A stretch of DNA of 64,000 bases, taken from the NCBI GenBank assembly GCA_017609625.1, contig JAFCDN010000001.1:1-64000 (forward strand). Reading direction: 5' to 3'. The position numbers and the translations under genes are program-made. Shown here piece after piece: positions 3,219 to 48,066 of this stretch; the first letter of the stretch is position 1, and each line of letters opens with the position of its first letter. Source of the DNA: Candidatus Iainarchaeum sp. Lineage in GTDB: Archaea; Iainarchaeota; Iainarchaeia; Iainarchaeales; 1-14-0-10-31-34. Below the pieces are notes generated by a model. That model did not search any database, was not told the origin of the DNA, and saw only the letters and a list, made by a program, of their open reading frames with translations.

Positions 3219-3219
3219 T

Positions 3220-3292
3220 GGGTCCGTAGCTCAGTCGGTAGAGCACCGGCCTTTTAAGCCGGGTGTCGAGGGTTCGAGTCCCTTCGGACTCG
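3220..3292 (+). tRNA. tRNA-Lys (TTT)
   Basis: Complete 73-nt cloverleaf: acceptor GGGTCCG/CGGACTC (one G:U pair), D stem GCTC/GAGC, anticodon stem CCGGC/GCCGG with loop CTTTTAA (anticodon TTT), T loop TTCGAGT, discriminator G. No intron. It is followed 120 nt downstream by a second tRNA-Lys with a very similar body, which suggests tandem duplication and divergence. Confidence 0.95.
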
Positions 3293-3326
3293 TTTCGCGG
3301 TTTCGTCCGTGAATAACGAGAAATGT

Positions 3327-3400: not shown

Positions 3401-3412
3401 GCACAAATAAAT

Positions 3413-3485
3413 GGGCCCGTAGCTCAGTCGGTAGAGCACATGGCTCTTAACCATGGGGTCGGGGGTTCGAATCCCTTCGGGCTCG
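3413..3485 (+). tRNA. tRNA-Lys (CTT)
   Basis: Complete 73-nt cloverleaf: acceptor GGGCCCG/CGGGCTC with one G:U pair, anticodon stem CATGG/CCATG with loop CTCTTAA (anticodon CTT), T loop TTCGAAT, discriminator G. No intron. With the neighbouring TTT isoacceptor it covers both lysine codons. A palindrome of the AACTTTT family (3487-3505) follows at once, then a hairpin with a T run near 3559-3589. Confidence 0.95.
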
Positions 3486-3558
3486 TAAACTTTTAAGAAA
3501 AGTTTAAGCAAAATGCGCGGGACAAGCCCGTGCTGTTTCGCTGTTTAAGCACGAGACA

Positions 3559-3644: not shown

Positions 3645-4385
3645 ATGCTGCCTTTAGTAACTTATTCTGATTTAGCTAAGACTTATCCAAAGAATAATAA
3701 GCTGAAATTTGATAACAGAGTGAACTCTTGGTTACCTTTATTTCCTTCTCCTGTTTTAGCAGGAATTGTTGCGGATTTGATGGCAGATGGCAACCTTTAA
3801 GGCCCTCCCAAATGGAGGTTTGACTATTGTTCAAAACACTCTAAAGAATTGAACAGATTTGGAAACACAGTTTTTTCTGTATTTGGTTTAAAAGGAACAA
3901 TTCGCCCCGGCACAACTAATAAATACAACACTAAAAATTATGGTGTAAACTGCAGGCCTCTTGCAAAAACTTTGTTTTTGATAGGTGTTCCTTATGGAAA
4001 TAAAGTATTGAAAAAATATTTAATCCCTAATTGGATTTTAAATGATAAAGATTGTTTTAGATTTTTTATTAGAAGATATTTTGATTGTGAACGTTCTATT
4101 GATTTAAAGAAAAAGTCCCTATCAGTTGAGGTTCACAAATCAACAGAACTAATTGAAAACTCATTTGTTTTTCTTAATCAGTTTAAGCAGGGACTTCTCA
4201 AGCATTTTGATATAAAAACTATTAATCCATTTAAATTGTCTTTGAAAGTGAAAAGAAAGTCAGGAGCGACAGTACAAGCCACAAGAATAAAAATCACAAG
4301 AAGAGAAAACATGGAAAAATTTTGTGCCGAAATAGGTTTTAACAGCAAGCTTAAAATGGAAAAGCTAAAATCAACCATATCTTAA
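3645..4385 (+). pseudogene. LAGLIDADG homing endonuclease, interrupted by an in-frame TAA
   Basis: Translation of this frame gives a LAGLIDADG-family DNA endonuclease: the first motif LAGIVADLMADGNL ends at a TAA codon (3798-3800), and the same frame then continues with GPPKWRFDYCSKH, the normal continuation in this family. A glutamine codon (CAA) turned into TAA by one C-to-T change would explain it. The second motif region (FIRRYFDCERSI) keeps an acidic residue but has lost its glycines. About 247 codons in all. It sits between tRNA-Lys(CTT) and the intron-bearing tRNA-Phe, but not inside the intron I can define. It may be a decaying selfish gene or a sequencing error. Confidence 0.8.
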
Positions 4386-4388: not shown

Positions 4389-4424
4389 ACTTTCTTCCAC
4401 CTAATTTTATGAGGTTGAGTCCCT

Positions 4425-4543
4425 GGGAATTCTTCTAAGATTATTATTCATTATTGTTTTGGTTGAACCAGTGCGGTAGCTCAGCCTGGGAGAGCACACG
4501 GTTGAAGACCGTGGTGTCGTGGGTCCAAATCCCACCCGTCCCA
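4425..4543 (+). tRNA. tRNA-Phe (GAA) with intron in the acceptor stem
   Basis: The 3' part (4474-4543) is a clear tRNA-Phe body: D stem GCTC/GAGC, anticodon stem CACGG/CCGTG with loop TTGAAGA (anticodon GAA), T stem GTGGG/CCCAC, 3' acceptor strand CCGTCCC and discriminator A. The bases directly upstream (AGTGCGG) mismatch at 1:72 and 3:70. Joining exon GGGA (4425-4428) to CGG (4474 on) restores GGGACGG, a perfect seven-pair stem. The mature tRNA would be 74 nt, with the 45-nt intron lying between nucleotides 4 and 5. The T loop is TCCAAAT, with C at position 55. Confidence 0.85.
4429..4473 (+). other. 45-nt tRNA-Phe intron with bulge-helix-bulge splice sites
   Basis: CTGG (4424-4427, flanking and exon bases) pairs with CCAG (4468-4471) to form the four-pair central helix. 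Three-nt bulges GAA (4427-4429) and TGC (4472-4474) lie on the two strands, cut after their second base. TTC/GAA (3 bp) and CC/GG (2 bp) extend the outer helices. Exact helix boundaries could shift by one base, but the GGGA/CGG exon junction is fixed by the acceptor stem. This is the known substrate shape of the archaeal tRNA splicing endonuclease. Confidence 0.75.
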
Positions 4544-4607: not shown

Positions 4608-5894
4608 ATGAATTCAACCTTAATTATTGGCTCGCAGTTCGGCGACGAAGGAAAAGGAAAAATCGTTGACTGTTTGGCAGAGAAATCTGACTGTGTTGTA
4701 AGGTTCCAGGGAGCAAACAATGCAGGCCACACTGTAGTGGTTGACGGAGAAAAATTCAAACTACACCTGCTTCCTTCAGGCGTAGTAAGAAAAAAACGTT
4801 CTTTGATTGGAACTGGGGTTTGTATTGACCCAAGAGTATTAAAAAAAGAAATTGACGGGTTAAAAGAAAAAGGAATTGAAGTCAATCTTGGAATTGATCC
4901 AAGAAGCCAGATAATAATGCCCTGGCATAATGTGATTGATGTAGGAAAAGAAGAAGCACTAAAAGAAAAAAACATTGGAACCACAAGAAGAGGAGTTGGC
5001 CCGTGCTATGCTGACAGAGCTTCAAGAATTGGAATCCGTTTTGATGATTTAGTTGATGAAAACCGGTTCAAAGAAAAACTTGCATTCAATTATTCTTACT
5101 ATAAAAACATCTGTGAAAACATTTTAGGAAAAACAATAGAATTTACAGAAGAAGAAGTTTTTCAAGAATACTTTGCTTTAGGAAAAGAATTCAAAAACAT
5201 GCTTACAGATGTTTCAATTGAAGTAAATCAATTATTAGACAAAAAAAAGAAAGTATTGTTTGAAGGGGCACAGGGAACTTTATTAGACAATGATTTTGGC
5301 ACTTATCCTTTTGTTACTTCTTCTCACCCGATTTCTGGTGCGGCAACAGTTGGGGTGGGGATGTCTCCAAAAAGACTGGAAAGAATTATTGGAATAGTTA
5401 AAGCTTATACTACTAGAGTTGGTTCAGGTCCTTTTCCCACAGAACTGCATGAAAAAGAAGCAGATTTTTTAAGGAATGCAGGCAATGAATTTGGAACAAC
5501 AACCGGCAGAGCTAGAAGAGTAGGCTGGCTTGATTTGCCAATGCTTAGAATGGCCCAAAGATTAAATGGTTTTACTGAATTAGGGCTAACAAAATTAGAT
5601 GTTTTAAGTGGAATAAAAGAATTAAAAATAGCAGATTCTTACACTTTAGAAGGAAAAAAAGTTTTAGAATTTCCTTATGCAAACCATTTGGTTCAAAAAT
5701 GCAAGCCAAACTACAAAGAATTTGATGGCTTTACTTTAGAAGACAAAGAGAGAGATGAACTCAGAAAAAATGGTTTTGGCGCATTAGACGAAAACGCAAA
5801 AAAATACATTTCTTTTATTGAAAAACAACTAAAAGTTCCAATAAAAACAGTTTCTTTTGGCGCAGAAAGAAAAGACACTTTAACAAGAGATTAA
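4608..5894 (+). CDS. purA: Adenylosuccinate synthetase
   Basis: PurA joins IMP and aspartate using GTP, the first of two steps from IMP to AMP. The N-terminal GDEGKGKIVD loop (about residues 12-21) with its catalytic Asp, the NNAGHTV block and a C-terminal GAERKDTL are all present. At 428 aa it is the full bacterial/eukaryal size and not the short (about 340 aa) form of some euryarchaea. ATG 4608 (MNSTLIIGSQ) is preferred over the in-frame TTG at 4596. A TTTAAAT box about 30 nt upstream suggests a nearly leaderless message. Its stop codon overlaps that of the convergent purB. Confidence 0.96.
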   Translation: MNSTLIIGSQFGDEGKGKIVDCLAEKSDCVVRFQGANNAGHTVVVDGEKFKLHLLPSGVVRKKRSLIGTGVCIDPRVLKKEIDGLKEKGIEVNLGIDPRSQIIMPWHNVIDVGKEEALKEKNIGTTRRGVGPCYADRASRIGIRFDDLVDENRFKEKLAFNYSYYKNICENILGKTIEFTEEEVFQEYFALGKEFKNMLTDVSIEVNQLLDKKKKVLFEGAQGTLLDNDFGTYPFVTSSHPISGAATVGVGMSPKRLERIIGIVKAYTTRVGSGPFPTELHEKEADFLRNAGNEFGTTTGRARRVGWLDLPMLRMAQRLNGFTELGLTKLDVLSGIKELKIADSYTLEGKKVLEFPYANHLVQKCKPNYKEFDGFTLEDKERDELRKNGFGALDENAKKYISFIEKQLKVPIKTVSFGAERKDTLTRD

Positions 5895-29012: not shown

Positions 29013-29290
29013 AGTGTGGGCATGCTTTAAAGTCGAGTTAAAACAAAAAACAGAATTAGCCCTTAATTGCTCTCCCTTCCGTTGATCCCAAAAGCATTAA
29101 GCAGTAAAATTTCCGTTGCTTCCTTCCAGATCTGGCGGGTTGGTTTTAAAACTTAATCTTAGGGGACAGAAGTTCATAGAAACAAACAAGGATTCTATTC
29201 TTTGGATTAAACCCTTCCCCAAAGCTTCGACTCCTGCTAAAGCAGATTTCAGGTAACAGAGAACTGCTGACTCTCCAGCCTAGCCCACTA
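29013..29290 (-). ncRNA. Signal recognition particle 7S RNA
   Basis: On the minus strand the 5' part reads GTGGGCTAGGCTGGAGAG followed by TCTCTGTTACCTGAAATCTG, matching the archaeal SRP Alu domain. The helix 8 motif CCAGATCTGGAAGGAAGCA (near 29117-29137) is the SRP54-binding tip. The 5' AGTGGGC pairs with GCCCACACT at the 3' end, closing the molecule at about 278 nt, slightly under the usual 300. A TATA-like tract (29311-29318) lies about 24 nt upstream of the 5' end. The protein partner SRP54 and receptor FtsY are at 61.6-64 kb. Ends are approximate. Confidence 0.92.
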
Positions 29291-35021: not shown

Positions 35022-38000
35022 CAAAAATATACAGAATCTCAGGTCCTGTTGTAACCGCAAAAGGACTTAAAGCAAAAATGTATGACTTAGTTAAAGCAGG
35101 AAAAGAAGAATTAATGGGAGAAGTAATTCAAATCGATGGAGACAAAACAACAATCCAGGTTTATGAAGACACTTCTGGAGTAAAACCAGGAGAGCCGGTA
35201 AAAAACACAGGTGCTCCGCTTTCAATTGAATTAGGACCTGGCTTATTAACAACAATTTATGACGGAATCCAAAGGCCTCTTCCAACTTTAGTAGAACAGA
35301 TGGGAAACTTTATTGAAAGAGGAATTTCTGTTCCAGGATTAGACAGAAAAAAGAAATGGAACTTTAAACCAACCGTAAAAAAAGGAGAAAAAGTTTCTGG
35401 AGGAGATGTAATTGGAACAGTTCAAGAAACAAAAAACATCACACACAAAATTTTGGTTCCTCCAACAATTTCAGGAAAAATAAAAGAAATAAAATCAGGT
35501 TCTTTTACTGTAACAGCAATAGTTGCAGTTTTAGATAACGGAAAAAAACTTTCTTTAATGCATGAATGGCCTGTAAGAAAACCAAGACCTTATGCAGAAA
35601 AATTAATGCCAACTGTTCCTTTAATCACCGGACAAAGAATTCTTGATTCTTTATTTCCAATAGCAAAAGGAGGAGCAGGAAGTATTCCAGGGCCATTTGG
35701 AAGCGGAAAATGCATAAGCGCAGACACAACAATTCTAGCAAACAACCAACTCATTCCAATAAAAGAAGCTTTTGAAAAAGAATTTTCCAACAAAGAAAAC
35801 CAGATTCAAGAAACTGAAGAAGAAACAATAATTGAACTAAAAGAACCAGTTGAAGTTTTTTCTTTCGATGGAAAGGAAATAAAAGAATCCCTTGCAACAC
35901 ACTTTTACAGAGGCAAAACAGAAAAATTAATTGAAATAAAAACCAGAAGCGGAAAAACAGTTAAACTAACTCCGATCCATAAACTATTCAAATTGAACCA
36001 AAGGCTGGAGATAGAAGAAACTCTTGCAATGAATTTGCAGGAAGGAGATTATCTAATCTCTCCAAGAAAAATTCCTTTCCAGACAGCTTTACAGGAAATA
36101 ACAATAAATTTCAACTGCAGAATTTCAGATGAAAAAGCAATCCAGAAAATGAAATCCATTATAGAGCAGGAATGCAAAAGCAAAGCAATTACAAAAAAAC
36201 AATTAGCTTCAGAATTGAATGTTTCCTATGATTCAATTATAGCATTTTACACTGGAAAAAACAAACCAACCTTTGATTTTATAAAAAAACTAGAAGCATT
36301 TTCAGACAAAAAAATCCCCTTCACTGAAATCAAAACTGAAAGGCAATCAAAATCAATCAAAATACCAGAATATTTTAATGAAGAATTCTCTGAATTGCTT
36401 GGCTTATTAATGGCTGATGGTTCAATTAAAGGAAAAGGAGTAATTGAATTCTACAACAAAAATCCTGTTTTAAGAAACAGGGCAAAATTTTTGTTAAAAA
36501 AACTATTCAATTTAGATTCAAAAGAAATTTATGCAAGAACAGTTGAAGCCATAACAGTTCCAAGTGTGCCATTGGCAAAACTTTTGAATTCTTTTGGTTT
36601 TCCTTTAAAGAAAAAATCAAGAAACTTAGTTCTTCCAAAACAATTACTTTCTTCTCCAGAAAATGTTTGCAATGAATTCCTAAAAGCTTACATCGCCTGT
36701 GATGGCCATGTTTCAAAGACAGATATAGAAATTGCAACTGCTTCAGAAAAAATGCAGTCAGGCTTATCATACTTGCTGACAAAAATAGGAATTTTGCACA
36801 CTACAAAACACAAGCTTGTAGATTCCACTAAGTATTTTAGAATTTTTATTGCCCCAAAAGAAGCAAACAAAATTAATTCGTATTACTCCAAAAAATATTA
36901 TTACACTTCCAAAGACATTGTTCCGATGACTCCTTCTTTATTCAAGGAAATGCTTCAAGAAACAAAACCTTGGCAACTGCAAAAGACAAGTATTTCAACA
37001 ACTGCTTTTTACAAGCAGGCCAATCAGACAGCAACAACCTTTCAGGAAGTAATAAAACAATTAGGAATTCAAGGTCATTTATATGAATTTGCCCAAGCAT
37101 TAGAACATGTTTTTTGTGATGAAGTCCTAGAAGTAAAAGAAATAAATTCAGAAGAGTTTGTTTTTGATTTGACTGTTCCTTTAACCCATAATTTTGTTTC
37201 AGGAAATTCTCCAATGATATTGCACAATACAGTAACCCAACAGCAGTTAGCAAAATGGAGTGACGCAGAAATTGTAGTTTACATTGGATGCGGAGAAAGA
37301 GGAAATGAAATGACTGAAGTATTGCATGAGTTTCCTGAATTATTAGATGTAAAAACCGGCAGGCCGTTAATGGAAAGAACAGTCTTAATTGCAAACACTT
37401 CAAATATGCCTGTTGCAGCAAGAGAAGCTTCAGTTTACACTGGAATGACTATGGCAGAATATTTTAGAGACCAAGGATTTGATGTAAGCTTAATGGCAGA
37501 TTCTACTTCTCGTTGGGCTGAAGCAATGAGAGAAATTTCTTCTAGATTAGAAGAAATGCCAGGAGAAGAAGGATATCCTGCATATTTAGCAGCAAGACTT
37601 TCAGAATTTTATGAAAGAGCCGGAAGAATAAATGTTTTAGGTTCAAGAAAAGAAACAGGTTCAGTTACAGCAATCGGAGCTGTCTCACCACCAGGAGGAG
37701 ACTTTTCTGAACCAGTAACACAAAACACATTAAAGATCACTAAAGTGTTTTGGGCTTTAGATGCAAAGCTTGCTCAAAGAAGGCACTTTCCTTCAATCAA
37801 CTGGCTTGACAGTTATAGCCTTTACTCTACATTATTAGAAAACTGGTTTGTAGAAAATGTTGCAAAAGACTGGGTTAAAATCAGAACTCAAGTAATGAAA
37901 ATTTTGCAGAAAGAATCTTCTTTGCAGGAAATTGTTCAGTTAATTGGTTCAGATGCTTTGCCTGAAAAAGAACAATTAACAATGGAAGTTGCAAGACTGA

Positions 38001-38310: not shown

Positions 38311-40923
38311 ATGAAAGAATATAAAACAATTGAAAAAATCGCAGGACCATTAATTTTTGTAAAAAAAACAGGCCCAATTGGATATGGGGAATTAGTTAAA
38401 ATAAAATTAGGGGACGGCACAATAAAAAACGGCCAAGTATTAGACACTTCAGATGATGTGGTTGTTGTTCAGGTTTTTGAAGGAACCTCTGCAATAGACA
38501 GAGGCTCTATAGTAAAATTCACCGGAGATACAATAAAACTAAAAGTCTCTAAAGATTTGCTTGGAAGAGTTCTTTCTGGTTTAGGAGAACCAATTGACAA
38601 TGGTCCAAGAATAATTCCAGATAAAGAATTAGATATTATTGGTTCTGCAATAAACCCTTATGCAAGAAGCTCTCCAAAAGATTTTGTCCAGACAGGTTTA
38701 TCAACTATTGATGGAATGAACACTCTGGTAAAAGGACAAAAATTGCCAATTTTTTCTGGTTCAGGTTTGCCTCATAATGACATTGCATTGCAAATCGCAA
38801 GACAGGCAAAAGTTGAAGGAAACTTTGCAGTTGTTTTTGCTGCAATGGGAATCACAAACGAAGAAGCCCAGCAATTCCAGCGCGACTTTGAACAAACAGG
38901 CGCATTAGAAAGAACAATAATGTTTTTGAATTTAGCAAATGACCCTGCAATTGAAAGATTGATTGCTCCAAGGATGGCTTTAACTGCAGCAGAATATTTA
39001 GCTTACACTCATGATATGCACGTACTAGTAATTTTAACAGATATGACAAACTATTGTGAAGCTTTAAGAGAAATCGGCGCAGCAAGAGAAGAAGTTCCAG
39101 GAAGAAGAGGTTATCCAGGTTATATGTACAGCGTAGACGGAAGCAGAAATATTGTTGTTCAAAACCCCGAAGGGGAAATAAAAATTTTGCCCATAAACGA
39201 GTTTTTCAAAAAAACGAGTGAAAAAAACCAAGCGGTCAAAAGCAAAGATGAATATGAGGAAAGAATTAACATTAGTGAATGGAAAGCATTAAGCTCTCTT
39301 AAAGACGGAACATCAGTATTCAGGCCGATAAAACAAGTAATAAGACACAAATACAAGGGAAAAATGTGTAAGCTTACAACCCAAACAGGAGAAACAATTG
39401 TTACTCCAAACCACAGTGTTTTTACAATAAATGAAAACAAGGAAATAGTTCCAGTTATTGCAGAAAATCTTTCTGTTGGTGATTTGCTTGCACACGCTCA
39501 CAATCTTCCTGCAACAGCAACAAGCACTAACAATAAATTAAGTGTAGAATTAGCAAGGCTTGCTGGCTATTATGTTGCAGAAGGCCATGCAATAAAATAT
39601 TTAGACAAAGTGAAAAATTGCTGGTGTCATTATGTAAGAATTGACAACAATTCGCAAGAAATGATTGACGATATGGTAGGTTGTTATGAAAAAGAGTTTG
39701 CCCACAAACCCTCAGTTTTTGTTTCAGATAAGCGTTCAGGCACTATAAGAACTTCTATTGGAGGGAAAAAATACTATGATGCATTTGTAAATGATCTTGA
39801 TTGTGGCCATAGTTCTTATGCTAAAGGAATTCCATCACAAGTATTTTCTGCAGAACCAGAAGTTCAACAAGCCTTTTTTGATTCATATTATTTAGGCGAT
39901 GGCAAAGCAACAGATTCTCGTTATAACATAATACAGTATGATATGGTTACAATAAGCCCTAAATTAAGAGACGGACTGATGCTGCTTTCAAGAAAATTGT
40001 ATCCAGAAAGAGTTCCAACTTTATACAAGTGGAAAGGCAGAGACGCTTGGAAGGTTTATCTTTCAACTTACCTCAAAGGAAAACATGAATTTGTAAATGA
40101 TGTTCTTGCAGCAGAAATAAAAAAAATTGAATTTGTGGAACCAACAGAAGAATTTGTCTATGATCTTAGCGTTGAAGAAACTCAAAATTTTGTTGATGCA
40201 TGCGGGAATGTCTTATTGCATAATACAGACCTTGCTTCAATTTATGAAAGAGCAGGATTAATTAAAGGAAAAAAAGGTTCTGTAACCCAAATTCCAATCT
40301 TAACAATGCCTGGAGATGATATAACCCATCCAATACCTGATTTAACAGGCTATATTACTGAAGGACAGATTGTTTTAGGAAGAGATTTGCATATGAAAGG
40401 AATTTACCCCCCAATTGATGTTCTTCCCTGCCTTTCAAGATTAATGAATGCAGGAATTGGCAAAAAGAATACAAGAGATGACCATAAAGCTGTTTCAAAT
40501 CAATTATATGCAGGCTATGCTGAAGGACGTTCTTTGCGTGGATTAGTTGCAATTGTTGGAGAAGAAGCTTTAAGTGAAAGAGACAGAGGTTTTTTGAAGT
40601 TTGCAGAACAATTTGAAGAGCAATTTATTACTCAAGGAAAATATGAAGACAGGACAATTTTTGACACTCTAAACTTAGGCTGGGATTTATTGTCTGCTTT
40701 ACCAACATCTGAACTCACAAGAATCGATGATGAATTAATCGAAAAATACTTAGACAAAAACAAGCGGCCAAAAGAAAAACCTGTTGAAACAAAAGAGGTA
40801 AAGAAAGAAGAATCAAAGAAACCAGAACCAATCCAAACAAATAATAAAAATTTAGATAAAAAAAATTCTAAACCTTCAAACAAGAAAAAAAATTCAAAGA
40901 AAAATAAGAAAAAGAAAAAGTGA
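38311..40923 (+). CDS. atpB: A-type ATP synthase subunit B with intein
   Basis: 870-aa precursor; 505 aa after removal of a 365-aa intein. The host is the non-catalytic nucleotide-binding B subunit ([22 protein letters not shown], where the slash is the intein site; no Walker A motif). The C-terminus carries an extra 50-residue Lys-rich tail (ending [12 protein letters not shown]), beyond the usual 460-aa length. The short gap between atpA and atpB contains a small GTTTAAGCACG hairpin resembling one near 3541. Confidence 0.94.
39130..40224 (+). other. Intein in AtpB (365 aa, Ser-1 type)
   Basis: Starts with Ser ([10 protein letters not shown]) and ends with LLHN before Thr. Block B is [11 protein letters not shown] (TPNH), block [17 protein letters not shown]. 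Two DOD-like motifs ([12 protein letters not shown] and DSYYLGDG) are present, so a homing endonuclease core is kept though small. The Ser-1 start and YVAEG motif recall inteins of B-family DNA polymerases. The insertion point is the conserved PGYMY/TDLA stretch. Splicing residues look intact. Confidence 0.93.
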
Positions 40924-43965: not shown

Positions 43966-46900
43966 TATTCCATTTTCTGTTACTTTGTAAACGGCTTCTC
44001 CGTCAGGTAAAGAAGGTGAATCTACAAGCTTTGCAACTCTTTTTTCTCCTTTTGCTTTTCTTAGGTACAATCTCGTTTTGCTGTTGTGCACTAAAAAACC
44101 GTTTGCAATATAGTTTTCTGTTTCTGGAACGCTTATGTCATACAAAGGCAAGTTGTTCTTTTGCTTTTTAATGCTTGTAACTTTTCCAAAAGAAATTTCT
44201 CTGTTTTGAATAGCTTCCAGCAACTTTATTTTTTCTTTGTGCTTTAAAGCAATTTCCTTCTCTTTTGTTTTTTCAAGAATTTCATTTAGTTCTTTCAAAG
44301 TAATATACTTGGAGTTTCTGGATTGAATTACTCTGCTTGGGTATTTAACTATTTCTTTCAGAAAGCCCCAAATAACTTTTCTTTTAATAGGTACAATAAC
44401 TTTCGCTTTATTTGCATTGAATTCTTTTACCCATTTATCTAGTTTTTTTCTTTTATCCGGAGCACTGACACCGATTTCTTTGCCATACTTTACAACATCT
44501 TCACTAAATATTTCTAGGGACTGAAATTGTTTTGTTCCATATTTTAGTATTCTGGATTTTATTCCAAACCTTAGTAACAGCATTTGAATTATTTGCAGTA
44601 TTTCTTTATCTTTTTGCCCAATGCTGATCCTTCTGATGTTTTTGTCAATGTGTCCTTCTGCATCCACAAATCCTTTAATAAATGCTTTAACAACAGGTTT
44701 TGGCGACTGCGTTATTAGGGCAATGTAGTTTCTTTTAATATAGGAAAACAGTTCTCTTATTTCTTTACTGTTCACGCTTAACTGCCAGCAATTTTTGTCT
44801 TTGATTTTTGAATATTTTCCTTCTATACTAAAGATGTCTTTGAACAGTTCTCCATAGGTTTCCAAAATTTCTATTCTTTCGTCTCTAAACCTTAAACTTC
44901 TTTGGTCAAGATTTCCGTCACCTAAAAAATAACCAGTTGTTTGTGAAAGTTCTTTAGAGAATGTTTCTGGAACAGTTAATGGTCTGTGCCTGTAATTTAA
45001 AGCAGGTTGTGTTTCTTCAATTATTTCTTCCGCAATCCCTTCATCAAATCCAAAACCAAAAATACTGTTTATGTTTTCCATTGAAATTGGCTTGCTTTCA
45101 TTCAATGATCTTCTTAATGATCTTTTATCAAAAGGCATTTCTTCACAGAACTGCTCTCTAGTAAAACCCATATTTTTAATAGTGTTTTTTATTAGTTCAG
45201 CGCCTTTTTTGTTGACAATCAAAAATTCTTTTAATTGCATTTTTGGGATTTCCTGTTCATTATCTTTAACTTCTATTTTTCCTGCTTGTAACAGATAGTC
45301 ATTTTTTGAGATATCTTTTGCTTTCACTTCCTTGATTTCAAACCCCTCTAATTTAAAGAATCTATGATTTGATGAAGCATTTATCTGATATCCTGTATCA
45401 ATCAAATAACTTTCTTTTATGTCTTCCCTTTTTGATTTAAATGTAACTGCTGAAACTTTTCCTTTTAATTCTTTTAAGTCAGTTGAACAAACACTGTTAT
45501 CTTTGAACTCTTTTATTTTAGTGATCTGTCCATTGCCTGTTTGAATCAAGGTATTTGGATCAAGACAAGCGTGGGCAACAATATTTCCCCCGATTGGGGC
45601 AGTAGGATCCCCAAATAATATATCTGGTCTTGCCATAACTTGGTTTGTAACTAATACAACTATATTATTCATTTCTGCCAGCTTCATTAAAACATGCATA
45701 TGTTTGTTTAATTTTTGCTGCCTTCCAGATAAAGTGCCTCTTCCAATGAATTCTGCTCTGAATTGGGAAGTTAAGGAATCAACTATAACTAATTTAATGT
45801 TTTTTTCTTTTATCATTTCTTCGGCTTTTTCTGCTAAAACCATTTGATGATCTGAGTTAAATGCTCTTGCAATAAAAATATTTTTTAGGACTTTATCTGG
45901 ATCTAATTTAAGGTGTTTTGCAATGCTTATAATTCTTTCAGGCCTAAAGGAATTTTCTGAGTCAATGTATAATACATTTCCTTCTAATCCTCCTTTTTCT
46001 TTTGGAAGTTGTGTTGTAACGCACAACTGAAAACACCATTGGGTGTTATGCAGAAATACCGGTTTGTTTCCTCCAATAAAGCTGTGAATTTCTGGCACAA
46101 CTAAATCATAAACCCAGTCATTGTATTCAATTGTTTTTATTGAAGAGATTTTTTCCCATTTGACTTGTGATTCAAGAATTAATTTTAGTTTTCCTAAATC
46201 TTTTTTAATTTCCTTGTCTTCCAGCAATTCATTAGTCATTTTTGTTAGTGTTTCATTTATTTCAATCACTTTTTGTTTATTCATTTTTCTTGTAATGTAA
46301 TTCTGAAAAGTTCCTTTTTTCAAATTCATTTCTTCTCTTATCTGAACCGTTGAGAATGGAAGGACTGCAAGTGCTTTGAAAACATTATTTTCTGTTGGTT
46401 CATCCAGCAATTTTCTTGTTTCTTTGATTTCTTTTATTCTTACTGAGAAGAAGCGTAGCATTTGTTTTATGGTTCTGTCTGTAACCCTGTCCATTACCGG
46501 TTCTTCTCTTGCAAAGAAATTTCTAAACAATGTTCTGTGTTCACTTTCTGTTATTTCTTTTTTATTCCATTTGTTAAACCTTCTTCTGGAACCAGTTAAT
46601 TTAGTGTAAATTCTGGTGTACAAAGGCTTAATTGCTTCTAAAGGAATTCCGTATTTGATTGAAATATTTTTGTTGCTTGTCAAGATATTGTCTTTTTTTA
46701 ATAAACTGTATTCTTTCATTAATTTTTCTATTTTAATTTTTGCTTTTGGTTCTGTAACATAATTTTTATAGAATGGCTCTGTTTTTATTGTCTGAATTCT
46801 TGAAGTTACATTAACTCCAATTCTTGCAAACAAATAAGTTAATTCTTCACTTAATTTTTTTGACCTTGTTCCAGTTACAACTGTTTTATTAACTTCTCCG

Positions 46901-48066
46901 TCGCCGTCAAGATAACCTGCTAAAAAAGCTTTGACTGCTTCTTCTTTTCCTGTAATGATTTCTTCTGGCACAAATTTTGTTCTGGATTTTGTTTTTCCTA
47001 ATTCTTTTAGGAATTCTTTTGTTGGTTTCTGTAAAATAATTAATTGTTTTTTTTCACTAAATGAAGGTTTATACTCAAATTTTTTTTCTATGTAGTTTAT
47101 CAGCCAGTTTTGAGCTTTTTTTTCAAATATTGTTATACTGCAAGGATTTGCACAGCCTTCAGCTGCATATAAACCCAAAAAGTATGCGTCTTCTATTGGC
47201 ATTTCTTTTCCGTTAAATTCAATTTTTTTTGGAACTCCAACAAAATCTCCTTCTTTTAGTAAGCCCATAGATTTCCATTGAATTCCTTTTTCATTTAAAG
47301 TCAGTAGTGGATGTCTTTCAGTTAATTTTATTTTAGCTCCTCTTTCTGTTTCAACTAATTTTAGTGTTCTACAGTATTCTTTAAACAAATTTGATGCATT
47401 TGCTTTCTTTGCTTTTCCAAATTTGTCTATTCCCATTACCTGCACAGGTTTTTTTATTTCTGCTAAAAAACCTCCGTCAAATGACTGTTCATTTACAGAA
47501 TAATTTTCATATAATTCTTCTATTGAACGCAAATGTGCTTTATCAGGATTAAAATACATAATTTTAGTGTCTTTTGAAACACATTTTCCGCTTGCAAATT
47601 TACCATAAATCTCGGTAATGCTTTGTGTTTCTAATCCCCCTCCAACTAATTCATCTAATTCTTTTGAGCCTGTTGTAACCCTTCCAATTGTTTTTCTTCT
47701 TTCCTGAATCTTGTCTGCTGTTTCATAACCCATTTCCAGTGATTCTCTTGCAGCAGTAATTGCTTTTGTTGCGGTAATTTCTCCTAATCCTGCAGCTTCC
47801 ATCAATTCTGCAGGGGATGCAACTGCAATGTTTTCCATTGTTTTGTATCCTGCTCCAATCAGTTTTTCTGCTGAAGTTGTTCCAACTCCGGGCAAATCTG
47901 AAATGGTTTTTATTTTCTTTTCCGGTTTAATTATTTTTGCATCTTCAGAATCAGAACTTGTTTTTTCTTTTTTTTCTGATGTAATTTTTGCATCTTTAGA
48001 TTCAAAAACTTCTTTTTTTTCTGTTTCTGTATTTTCAGAACTAGTTTTAACTTTTTTTTCCGCCAT
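43957..48066 (-). CDS. radA: DNA repair and recombination protein RadA with two inteins
   Basis: 1369-aa precursor giving a 361-aa RadA after both inteins leave. RadA is the archaeal RecA/Rad51 strand-exchange protein. The host shows an acidic/Lys-rich N-terminal extension (1-50), the helix-hairpin-helix domain (51-110), a P-loop GKFASGK(T) at 154-161 (relatives have GEFGSGKT), Walker B KLVIVDSLTSQF, the loop region with GRGTLSGRQQ, and a normal C-terminus. Intein 1 sits in the P-loop and intein 2 at IVAHA/SKTRLYLRK, so active RadA needs two splicing events. Its leader of about 110 nt has two hairpins. Confidence 0.95.
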   Translation of the reverse strand: MAEKKVKTSSENTETEKKEVFESKDAKITSEKKEKTSSDSEDAKIIKPEKKIKTISDLPGVGTTSAEKLIGAGYKTMENIAVASPAELMEAAGLGEITATKAITAARESLEMGYETADKIQERRKTIGRVTTGSKELDELVGGGLETQSITEIYGKFASGKCVSKDTKIMYFNPDKAHLRSIEELYENYSVNEQSFDGGFLAEIKKPVQVMGIDKFGKAKKANASNLFKEYCRTLKLVETERGAKIKLTERHPLLTLNEKGIQWKSMGLLKEGDFVGVPKKIEFNGKEMPIEDAYFLGLYAAEGCANPCSITIFEKKAQNWLINYIEKKFEYKPSFSEKKQLIILQKPTKEFLKELGKTKSRTKFVPEEIITGKEEAVKAFLAGYLDGDGEVNKTVVTGTRSKKLSEELTYLFARIGVNVTSRIQTIKTEPFYKNYVTEPKAKIKIEKLMKEYSLLKKDNILTSNKNISIKYGIPLEAIKPLYTRIYTKLTGSRRRFNKWNKKEITESEHRTLFRNFFAREEPVMDRVTDRTIKQMLRFFSVRIKEIKETRKLLDEPTENNVFKALAVLPFSTVQIREEMNLKKGTFQNYITRKMNKQKVIEINETLTKMTNELLEDKEIKKDLGKLKLILESQVKWEKISSIKTIEYNDWVYDLVVPEIHSFIGGNKPVFLHNTQWCFQLCVTTQLPKEKGGLEGNVLYIDSENSFRPERIISIAKHLKLDPDKVLKNIFIARAFNSDHQMVLAEKAEEMIKEKNIKLVIVDSLTSQFRAEFIGRGTLSGRQQKLNKHMHVLMKLAEMNNIVVLVTNQVMARPDILFGDPTAPIGGNIVAHACLDPNTLIQTGNGQITKIKEFKDNSVCSTDLKELKGKVSAVTFKSKREDIKESYLIDTGYQINASSNHRFFKLEGFEIKEVKAKDISKNDYLLQAGKIEVKDNEQEIPKMQLKEFLIVNKKGAELIKNTIKNMGFTREQFCEEMPFDKRSLRRSLNESKPISMENINSIFGFGFDEGIAEEIIEETQPALNYRHRPLTVPETFSKELSQTTGYFLGDGNLDQRSLRFRDERIEILETYGELFKDIFSIEGKYSKIKDKNCWQLSVNSKEIRELFSYIKRNYIALITQSPKPVVKAFIKGFVDAEGHIDKNIRRISIGQKDKEILQIIQMLLLRFGIKSRILKYGTKQFQSLEIFSEDVVKYGKEIGVSAPDKRKKLDKWVKEFNANKAKVIVPIKRKVIWGFLKEIVKYPSRVIQSRNSKYITLKELNEILEKTKEKEIALKHKEKIKLLEAIQNREISFGKVTSIKKQKNNLPLYDISVPETENYIANGFLVHNSKTRLYLRKAKGEKRVAKLVDSPSLPDGEAVYKVTENGIED
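44083..45567 (-). other. RadA intein 2 (495 aa)
   Basis: Begins CLDPNTLIQTGNG, ends GFLVHN before Ser. Block B YQINASSNHRFFKL has the His, block F is LYDISVPETENYIANG. DOD motifs TTGYFLGDGNLD and FIKGFVDAEGHID suggest an active-type endonuclease core. The site lies in the ATP-cap region near the C-terminus of RadA. Confidence 0.94.
46045..47583 (-). other. RadA intein 1 (513 aa) in the P-loop
   Basis: Begins CVSKDTKIM directly after GKFASGK and ends KPVFLHN before Thr. Block B is KLTERHPLLTL (TERH), block F WVYDLVVPEIHSFIGG. DOD motifs YFLGLYAAEG and GYLDGDGEV are present. The insertion point is equivalent to that of the AtpA intein (after the P-loop Lys). Confidence 0.95.

Follow-up and report, generated by a model that had tools for sequence, protein, structure and literature searches.

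How can a tRNA-Phe gene whose acceptor stem does not pair as encoded give a regular tRNA, and, if an intron accounts for the mispairing, how did it come to lie at so odd a position? The question is raised by a gene in a stretch of 64,000 nucleotides from Candidatus Iainarchaeum sp. (the window; its genome is G000 below). ARAGORN and Rfam both place this gene at 4470-4543. In this unspliced reading the acceptor stem has mismatches at 1:72 (A.C) and 3:70 (U.C), and the Rfam score is 48.8 bits, where the window's three other tRNAs reach 63-72 bits. The initial annotation had ascribed the mispairing to an intron between nucleotides 4 and 5 (position 4/5) and had expected standard tools to mis-end the gene; both expectations are borne out. 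The sequence can be read directly as a tRNA-Phe(GAA) gene that is split at 4/5 by a 45-nt intron at 4429-4473, with the layout GGTTGAGTCCCTGGGA / ATTCTTCTAAG...GGTTGAACCAGTG / CGGTAGCTCAG... over 4413-4543. The 3' acceptor strand is CCGTCCC followed by A73, the last base being 4543. Removal of the intron joins GGGA to CGG, and GGGACGG forms seven Watson-Crick pairs with CCGTCCC. The cloverleaf score rises from 24.2 to 28.8 and equals that of normal tRNAs. Removal thus restores a cloverleaf of standard pairs, as for a bulge-helix-bulge (BHB) tRNA intron. The features of the locus are collected in Table 1.

Table 1. Features of the tRNA-Phe locus in window positions, with loci of related frames elsewhere
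Feature	Position	Strand	Basis or remark
tRNA-Lys(TTT), conserved neighbour	3219..3293	+	ARAGORN; part of a Lys-Lys-Phe cluster that many relatives share
tRNA-Lys(CTT), conserved neighbour	3412..3486	+	Lys-Lys-Phe cluster in many relatives
Subfamily-A LAGLIDADG homing-endonuclease gene, free-standing, interrupted in frame by one stop (3798-3800)	3645..4385	+	Pfam and copies in relatives
5' leader clamp, GGTTGAGT	4413..4420	+	8 bp with D-arm strand 4479-4486 in the minimum-free-energy (MFE) fold
BHB core strand 1, CTGG (final two bases of the leader, then nucleotides 1-2)	4423..4426	+	Partner 4468-4471 in the MFE fold
5' exon, nucleotides 1-4, GGGA	4425..4428	+	Partner after splicing: UCCC in the 3' half of the stem
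5' bulge GAA, predicted cut after 4428	4427..4429	+	Splice-site parse and MFE fold
BHB intron at 4/5, 45 nt	4429..4473	+	7/7 acceptor pairs on removal; canonical BHB; ends kept in G002
BHB core strand 2, CCAG, within the intron	4468..4471	+	MFE fold
3' bulge TGC, predicted cut after 4473	4472..4474	+	Splice-site parse and MFE fold
3' exon of tRNA-Phe(GAA), nucleotides 5-73	4474..4543	+	Second intron absent here, unlike in relatives
D-arm strand GCTCAGCC, partner of the leader in the precursor	4479..4486	+	MFE fold
Adenylosuccinate synthetase (PurA), downstream of tRNA-Phe	4611..5894	+	79-82 % identical to PurA of G001/G002, downstream of tRNA-Phe there too
LAGLIDADG frames at other tRNAs	L279 (G000:C6:12500-14500), L262 (G000:C52), L266 (G002:C26), L278 (G000:C3), L265 (G000:C2), L269 (G001:C42)		Upstream of or overlapping the tRNA

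The predicted precursor presents a complete splicing motif. The unconstrained MFE fold of 4413-4543 (z = -2.43) includes exactly the BHB at 4/5, and every detail given in the initial annotation, namely the CTGG/CCAG core and the GAA and TGC bulges, reappears in it. Each 3-nt bulge is predicted to be cleaved after its second base. The four core pairs are all Watson-Crick, and the core is flanked by an intron helix of 3 bp (TTC/GAA) and an exon helix of 2 bp (CC/GG), which together constitute an hBHBh' motif. In addition, the leader GGUUGAGU pairs with the D-arm strand GCUCAGCC over 8 bp. Leaders pair likewise in the G002, G034, G065, and G006 precursors, whose 5' regions have z-scores of -3.2 to -7.1. 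The BHB core of the 4/5 intron in G006 is weaker. Every one of the five 4/5-intron genes has a leader/D-arm helix of 6-9 bp (score 6-8.5), whereas the mean score is 2.7 in 50 tRNA-Phe genes that lack this intron, of which one (G073) reaches 5 (Mann-Whitney p = 1e-4). Half of the four core pairs and the entire exon-side helix depend on leader bases. Early loss of the leader would therefore destroy the splicing substrate, and for this reason splicing should precede removal of the leader by RNase P.

From this fold, the following course of events can be proposed. The leader would pair with the D-arm strand, clamping the BHB, of which leader bases form part of the core. A single alpha4-like endonuclease would cleave both bulges, and RtcB would ligate GGGA to CGG. 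The D-arm would then be freed and the acceptor stem could form, so that the D-arm and acceptor stem of the cloverleaf would arise after splicing, not before. RNase P would trim the leader last. Genes for RtcB and RNase P RNA are both present in the genome. Although the fold is a prediction and we infer the cutting, the joining, and their order from it, we are highly confident that 4425-4543 carries a real BHB intron and that it is spliced from a clamped precursor in this way.

The gene might instead be a pseudogene or a damaged tRNA that runs uninterrupted over 4470-4543, its acceptor stem degenerate and the GGGA upstream a coincidence, as the calls of the standard tools would have it. However, the GAA anticodon occurs once among the 37 tRNA-search matches in the genome (assembly 91.7% complete), at 4425-4543. 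An intact tRNA-Phe elsewhere, which the initial annotation had named as the case that would overturn the intron, was looked for there and not found. When the upstream sequence was shuffled 20,000 times by dinucleotide, a perfect acceptor-stem BHB intron never appeared; with CGG kept, it did so 5 times in 20,000. Furthermore, G002, which belongs to the same genus, has identical intron ends and conserved exons and leader, while the intron interior differs and is 13 nt shorter, giving an intron of 32 nt. Damage to the gene is thus very improbable. Split and permuted tRNA genes are both known in archaea (PMC3218864), and the true 5' piece could in principle lie elsewhere and be joined in trans. 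A second locus is not needed, since with GGGA in cis the stem is perfect and the BHB canonical, and the same cis arrangement recurs in four other genomes; a join in trans is exceedingly improbable. The pseudogene, split-tRNA, and permuted-tRNA readings were rejected on the cis BHB, the perfect stem, the sole tRNA-Phe, and the shuffles. The intron could also be real with RNase P acting first and the leader/D-arm helix being incidental. The presence of RNase P RNA is compatible with this, and the order of events is itself deduced, but the dependence of the core and exon-side helix on leader bases and the occurrence of the leader/D-arm helix in five of five genes with a 4/5 intron make it improbable.

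A cis-spliced intron at 4/5 has to be handled by the splicing enzymes of the cell. One splicing endonuclease gene (PF02778 and PF01974, 171 aa; L001 1273-1788) was found in the genome, and a search of the genome for a second EndA subunit or a further gene found none, even at E <= 10. Over its whole length the protein is collinear with M. jannaschii EndA (1A79), with no extra loop, and no CSL/ASL loop was found in it. This is the architecture of the alpha4 type, i.e., a single subunit of about 170-180 aa with one N-terminal and one C-terminal domain, no partner, and no insertion. The length and the absence of a partner gene suggest a homotetramer. The catalytic triad of the alpha4 type (Tyr, His, Lys) is incomplete: Tyr and His are kept, but Thr stands in place of the catalytic Lys (Mj K156, Af K287) in 18 of 18 aligned EndA proteins of the order. 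We therefore call the enzyme alpha4-like by architecture only. In most of them the Thr is part of an N[IL]xT motif; between the active-site Tyr and His lies a GK loop that is invariant. Alanine at the catalytic Lys abolishes cleavage in characterised enzymes (PMC12397907). The activity of this EndA is assumed because many introns in the order need it, and the loop lysine is a candidate for substituting the catalytic Lys. Of 18 genomes of the order examined for the gene, 16 have it, with open frames of 171-194 aa in those that no contig end truncates, and among these 16 are genomes with three or four tRNA-Phe introns. No EndA was found in two of the 18 (G034 and G056), which is probably due to assembly incompleteness.

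The initial annotation had advised identifying the endonuclease type and had held that introns at such sites need an endonuclease of broad specificity. The search yielded the alpha4-like enzyme, and the claim of broad specificity finds no support in a single EndA without a second subunit or a CSL/ASL loop. The H. volcanii endonuclease strictly requires hBHBh' (PMC7714728), and splicing that does not depend on mature tRNA structure is known in Haloferax, going by the title of a reference cited in PMC7714728. A canonical BHB at an odd position should therefore be within reach of an alpha4-like enzyme. Relaxed specificity is unnecessary because the BHB is canonical and its position alone is unusual.

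The 4/5 intron is one of many in the tRNA-Phe genes of the order. A model built on the 3' half of tRNA-Phe matched 74 of 75 genomes, although some matches are not true tRNA-Phe, and a consensus-guided dynamic-programming parser was run on 60 genomes. Three of them (G014, G017, and G057) were not parsed, being mis-assigned or cut by a contig end, and in about 15 more, no clear tRNA-Phe match turned up. Nearly all of the surveyed genomes are probably metagenome assemblies. Intron positions were assigned by script; the D-loop site is labelled 19/20, and the conserved GG places it after G18. In this order, tRNA-Phe is a hot spot for introns, which occur at seven positions. The 4/5 intron occurs in three families, in G000 and G002 (same genus), G034 and G065 (family f7), and G006 (family f4). 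The 9/10 intron was found in G036, G052, and G056, the D-loop intron in G001, G002, G012, G026, G034, G042, G058, and G062, the 22/23 intron in G073, and the 43/44 intron in G056, G058, and G060. The 30/31 and 37/38 introns occur in 10 and 14 genomes, respectively. Within one position class, splice-site ends are largely conserved and interiors vary. Four introns each are present in the tRNA-Phe genes of G002, G056 (L188), and G058 (L192). In G002 (L060, ~1777-2054; G002:C144) they lie at 4/5, the D-loop, 30/31, and 37/38, and all cores have 4/4 pairs. Three introns is the archaeal tRNA maximum given by tRNAscan-SE 2.0 (PMC8450103), and four-intron archaeal tRNAs are new relative to such open-access sources. 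Likewise, 4/5 is a new acceptor-stem intron position relative to the open-access sources, which name 3/4. In the open-access literature, outside which many primary papers lie, we found neither tRNA introns of DPANN or Diapherotrites nor tRNAs with four introns, and no homing endonuclease tied to an archaeal tRNA intron.

A free-standing nuclease gene directly precedes the window tRNA-Phe, ending 39 bases before nucleotide 1. The initial annotation had overlooked this broken gene, as well as the leader/D-arm helix and the occurrence of the 4/5 intron in further families. Its product matches Pfam LAGLIDADG_3 (PF14528) with 24.3 bits (cut-off 22.5) and is 65, 58, and 56 % identical to the copies upstream of tRNA-Phe in G002, G065, and G034. 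These copies belong to subfamily A, which (above 200 bits) occurs only in G000, G002, G034, G065, and G052, always upstream of tRNA-Phe on the same strand. Measured to the stop codon, the five genes end 41-51 nt upstream; free-standing nuclease genes thus adjoin intron-bearing genes, as collaborative homing would have it. Four of the carriers are 4/5-intron genomes, out of five such genomes in all, and the fifth carrier, G052, has introns at 9/10, 30/31, and 37/38. Its genus mate G036 (L154) keeps the shared 9/10 intron and has subfamily-A fragments in several frames upstream, the remains of a decayed nuclease. The gene is in two pieces in G034 (contigs C47 and C4) and appears to be frame-shifted at the N-terminus in G002. 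It is open throughout in G065, whose intact protein scores 18.6 bits, below the cut-off of 22.5, and is 58-60 % identical to the window and G002 copies.

Further subfamilies stand before other tRNA-Phe genes. Subfamily A' precedes tRNA-Phe in G003, G015, G020, G035, and G040, all with 30/31 and 37/38 introns; with the distant members in G073 (22/23 intron) and G072 (no intron), this pair of introns accompanies five of seven carriers. Subfamily B is found in G001 and G012, both with a D-loop intron, and subfamily C in G026, G060, and G068, whose introns differ. PF14528 was above the cut-off in the scanned A', B, and C proteins and in those of G072/G073, as in the window copy. When compared with NCBIfam, subfamily A matched only intein-bearing proteins such as RtcB, which suggests a relation to intein endonucleases. 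Matches to solved structures were weak and limited to V-type ATP synthase chains, and a search of viral contigs for a relative of subfamily A found none.

Nuclease genes and introns are associated across the 56 genomes with usable context. A nuclease gene adjoins 16 of 23 intron-bearing tRNA-Phe genes versus 2 of 33 intron-less ones (Fisher p = 6e-7), and subfamily A is associated with the 4/5 intron (p = 7e-5). Permutation of nuclease labels within families gave p = 0.0002 for the three matches of subfamily to position, p = 0.003 for the pairing of subfamily A and 4/5, and p = 0.012 when nucleases of every kind were set against non-canonical introns of every kind. Because subfamilies and positions were defined after the data had been seen and the genomes are related, these p-values are indicative only. 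The identity of subfamily A falls from 65 % within the genus to 56-58 % in another family, while that of PurA falls from 82 to 55-56 %. This slower drop suggests that subfamily A moved between families.

These associations point to collaborative homing, for which the following steps can be envisaged. The upstream LAGLIDADG nuclease would cleave intron-less tRNA-Phe genes near nucleotides 4 and 5. The intron would split the recognition site and thereby shield the chromosome that carries it. Repair off an intron-bearing copy would transfer the intron together with the neighbouring nuclease gene. The window gene is now broken, as would be expected late in a homing cycle. The linkage and the subfamily-position match are observed, and from them we infer the cleavage specificity and the mobility. 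On balance, we lean towards the intron having spread, or having been kept, together with the upstream gene by collaborative homing as its most likely history. The explanation of the locus as a whole, weighted to the intron and its splicing, we regard as likely. For the order at large, the odds seem even that non-canonical BHB tRNA introns spread and were kept in this way, each nuclease subfamily selecting its own position, with up to four introns per tRNA that would all be handled by an alpha4-like enzyme with a replaced catalytic lysine. We found no report of collaborative homing for BHB tRNA introns in the open-access literature.

Some genomes do not follow the pattern. G052 has subfamily A without a 4/5 intron, G006 a 4/5 intron without a nuclease gene, and G072 an A'-like gene without an intron, and subfamily C accompanies several different introns. 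In the main rival explanation, the intron is real and the nuclease genes are independent hitchhikers that land at conserved tRNAs by intronless homing, while introns arrive through integrase attachment-site exchange or transposition (a route proposed for Caldiarchaeum tRNA-Thr). Mobile-element models of tRNA intron gain have been published (PMC3293823), the G072 gene bears a nuclease and no intron, and introns without an adjoining nuclease gene occur in G062, G042, G067, G056, and G006. However, hitchhiking predicts neither that nuclease-bearing tRNA-Phe genes mostly have introns nor that subfamily and position match across families (within-family permutation p = 0.0002), and nuclease remnants lie beside some introns that lack an intact gene (G036 and G058). 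The subfamily-position match in particular argues against independent hitchhikers, which we consider possible but rather unlikely, and collaborative homing is the reading kept here.

Other tRNAs of G000 also carry introns, mostly at 37/38. Further non-canonical introns lie in the D-loop of tRNA-Arg(GCG) and tRNA-Gln(CTG) and in the D-arm of tRNA-Ala(GGC), where the site is approximate. Eight stand-alone LAGLIDADG_3 frames (<420 aa) were found in the genome. Five of them stand directly before a tRNA on the same strand, namely Phe (4/5 intron), Arg-GCG (D-loop), Gln-CTG (D-loop), Ser-CGA (37/38), and Pro-GGG (no intron); one of the remaining three is at a contig end. The pairing with Gln-CTG is conserved in G002. 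LAGLIDADG frames were seen upstream of or overlapping Arg-GCG, Gln-CTG, Ser-CGA, Pro-GGG, and Leu-TAG tRNAs, several of which have introns, and some of these frames extend into the tRNA or its intron. A 375-aa frame without a Pfam family (L250 296-1423, minus strand; G000:C40) runs up to the start of tRNA-Ala(GGC), a gene with D-arm and 37/38 introns, and is possibly another nuclease type. In the window, LAGLIDADG_3 domains also lie in long open frames (871-1372 aa) at 36386-36814, 39544-39792, and 44470-46938. These are probably inteins; the genome has 29 such domain matches. An archaeal SRP RNA was found at 29014-29290 on the minus strand of the window (Rfam, 122 bits). As for the lineage, the two records with a PurA 79-82 % identical carry different labels, Candidatus Diapherotrites for L061 and Candidatus Micrarchaeota for L060, and most of the next archaeal matches are labelled Diapherotrites, in agreement with the DPANN origin suggested at the outset.

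How introns are gained at odd positions of archaeal tRNA genes is a long-standing question, and the models in the sources consulted invoke integrases or transposable elements. Introns that travel with upstream homing genes may help explain such positions. A position-specific link between a BHB intron and a homing gene would be a directly testable mechanism, requiring one protein and two DNA substrates. The reviews consulted tie non-canonical introns to (alpha-beta)2 or epsilon2 endonucleases. This lineage challenges that view, since its genomes, with up to four introns in a tRNA, presumably rely on a single alpha4-like enzyme that lacks the usual catalytic Lys.

Archaeal rRNA BHB introns can contain LAGLIDADG genes, as in the 16S rRNA of Thermoproteales (cf. 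the account in PMC4496867). LAGLIDADG genes are thus linked to BHB introns in both systems. However, in the rRNA introns the gene lies inside, whereas here it lies outside, upstream of the tRNA, and the 4/5 introns are just 32-45 nt long. F-CphI of cyanophage S-PM2 is a free-standing endonuclease that targets an intron-less site, and the intron blocks self-cleavage (PMC6083498). The endonuclease gene adjoins an intron-bearing gene in both cases; the block on self-cleavage is known there and proposed here. F-CphI has an Endo VII motif and acts with a group I intron in a phage. Here, by contrast, a LAGLIDADG protein accompanies a BHB tRNA intron in a cellular archaeal chromosome, and cleavage is proposed from linkage.

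The EndA described here shares with M. jannaschii EndA (1A79, alpha4 class) the length of 171 aa, collinearity, the N- and C-terminal domains, and the active-site Tyr and His. M. jannaschii EndA has the catalytic Lys, whereas Thr replaces it in this order (18/18), within a motif of the N[IL]xT type, and the His is preceded by a GK loop that is invariant. The closest parallels to the intron itself are the acceptor-stem BHB introns at 3/4 in Thermoproteales (Sugahara et al. 2008, as cited in PMC4090602); acceptor-stem introns are also mentioned in PMC12397907. Like the 4/5 intron, they are short BHB introns that lie outside 37/38, in the acceptor stem, and are removed by tRNA splicing endonuclease. 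They differ in position (3/4 versus 4/5), lineage (Crenarchaeota versus DPANN), and enzyme ((alpha-beta)2 versus alpha4-like), and the 4/5 intron has in addition a leader/D-arm clamp and an adjoining homing-endonuclease gene.
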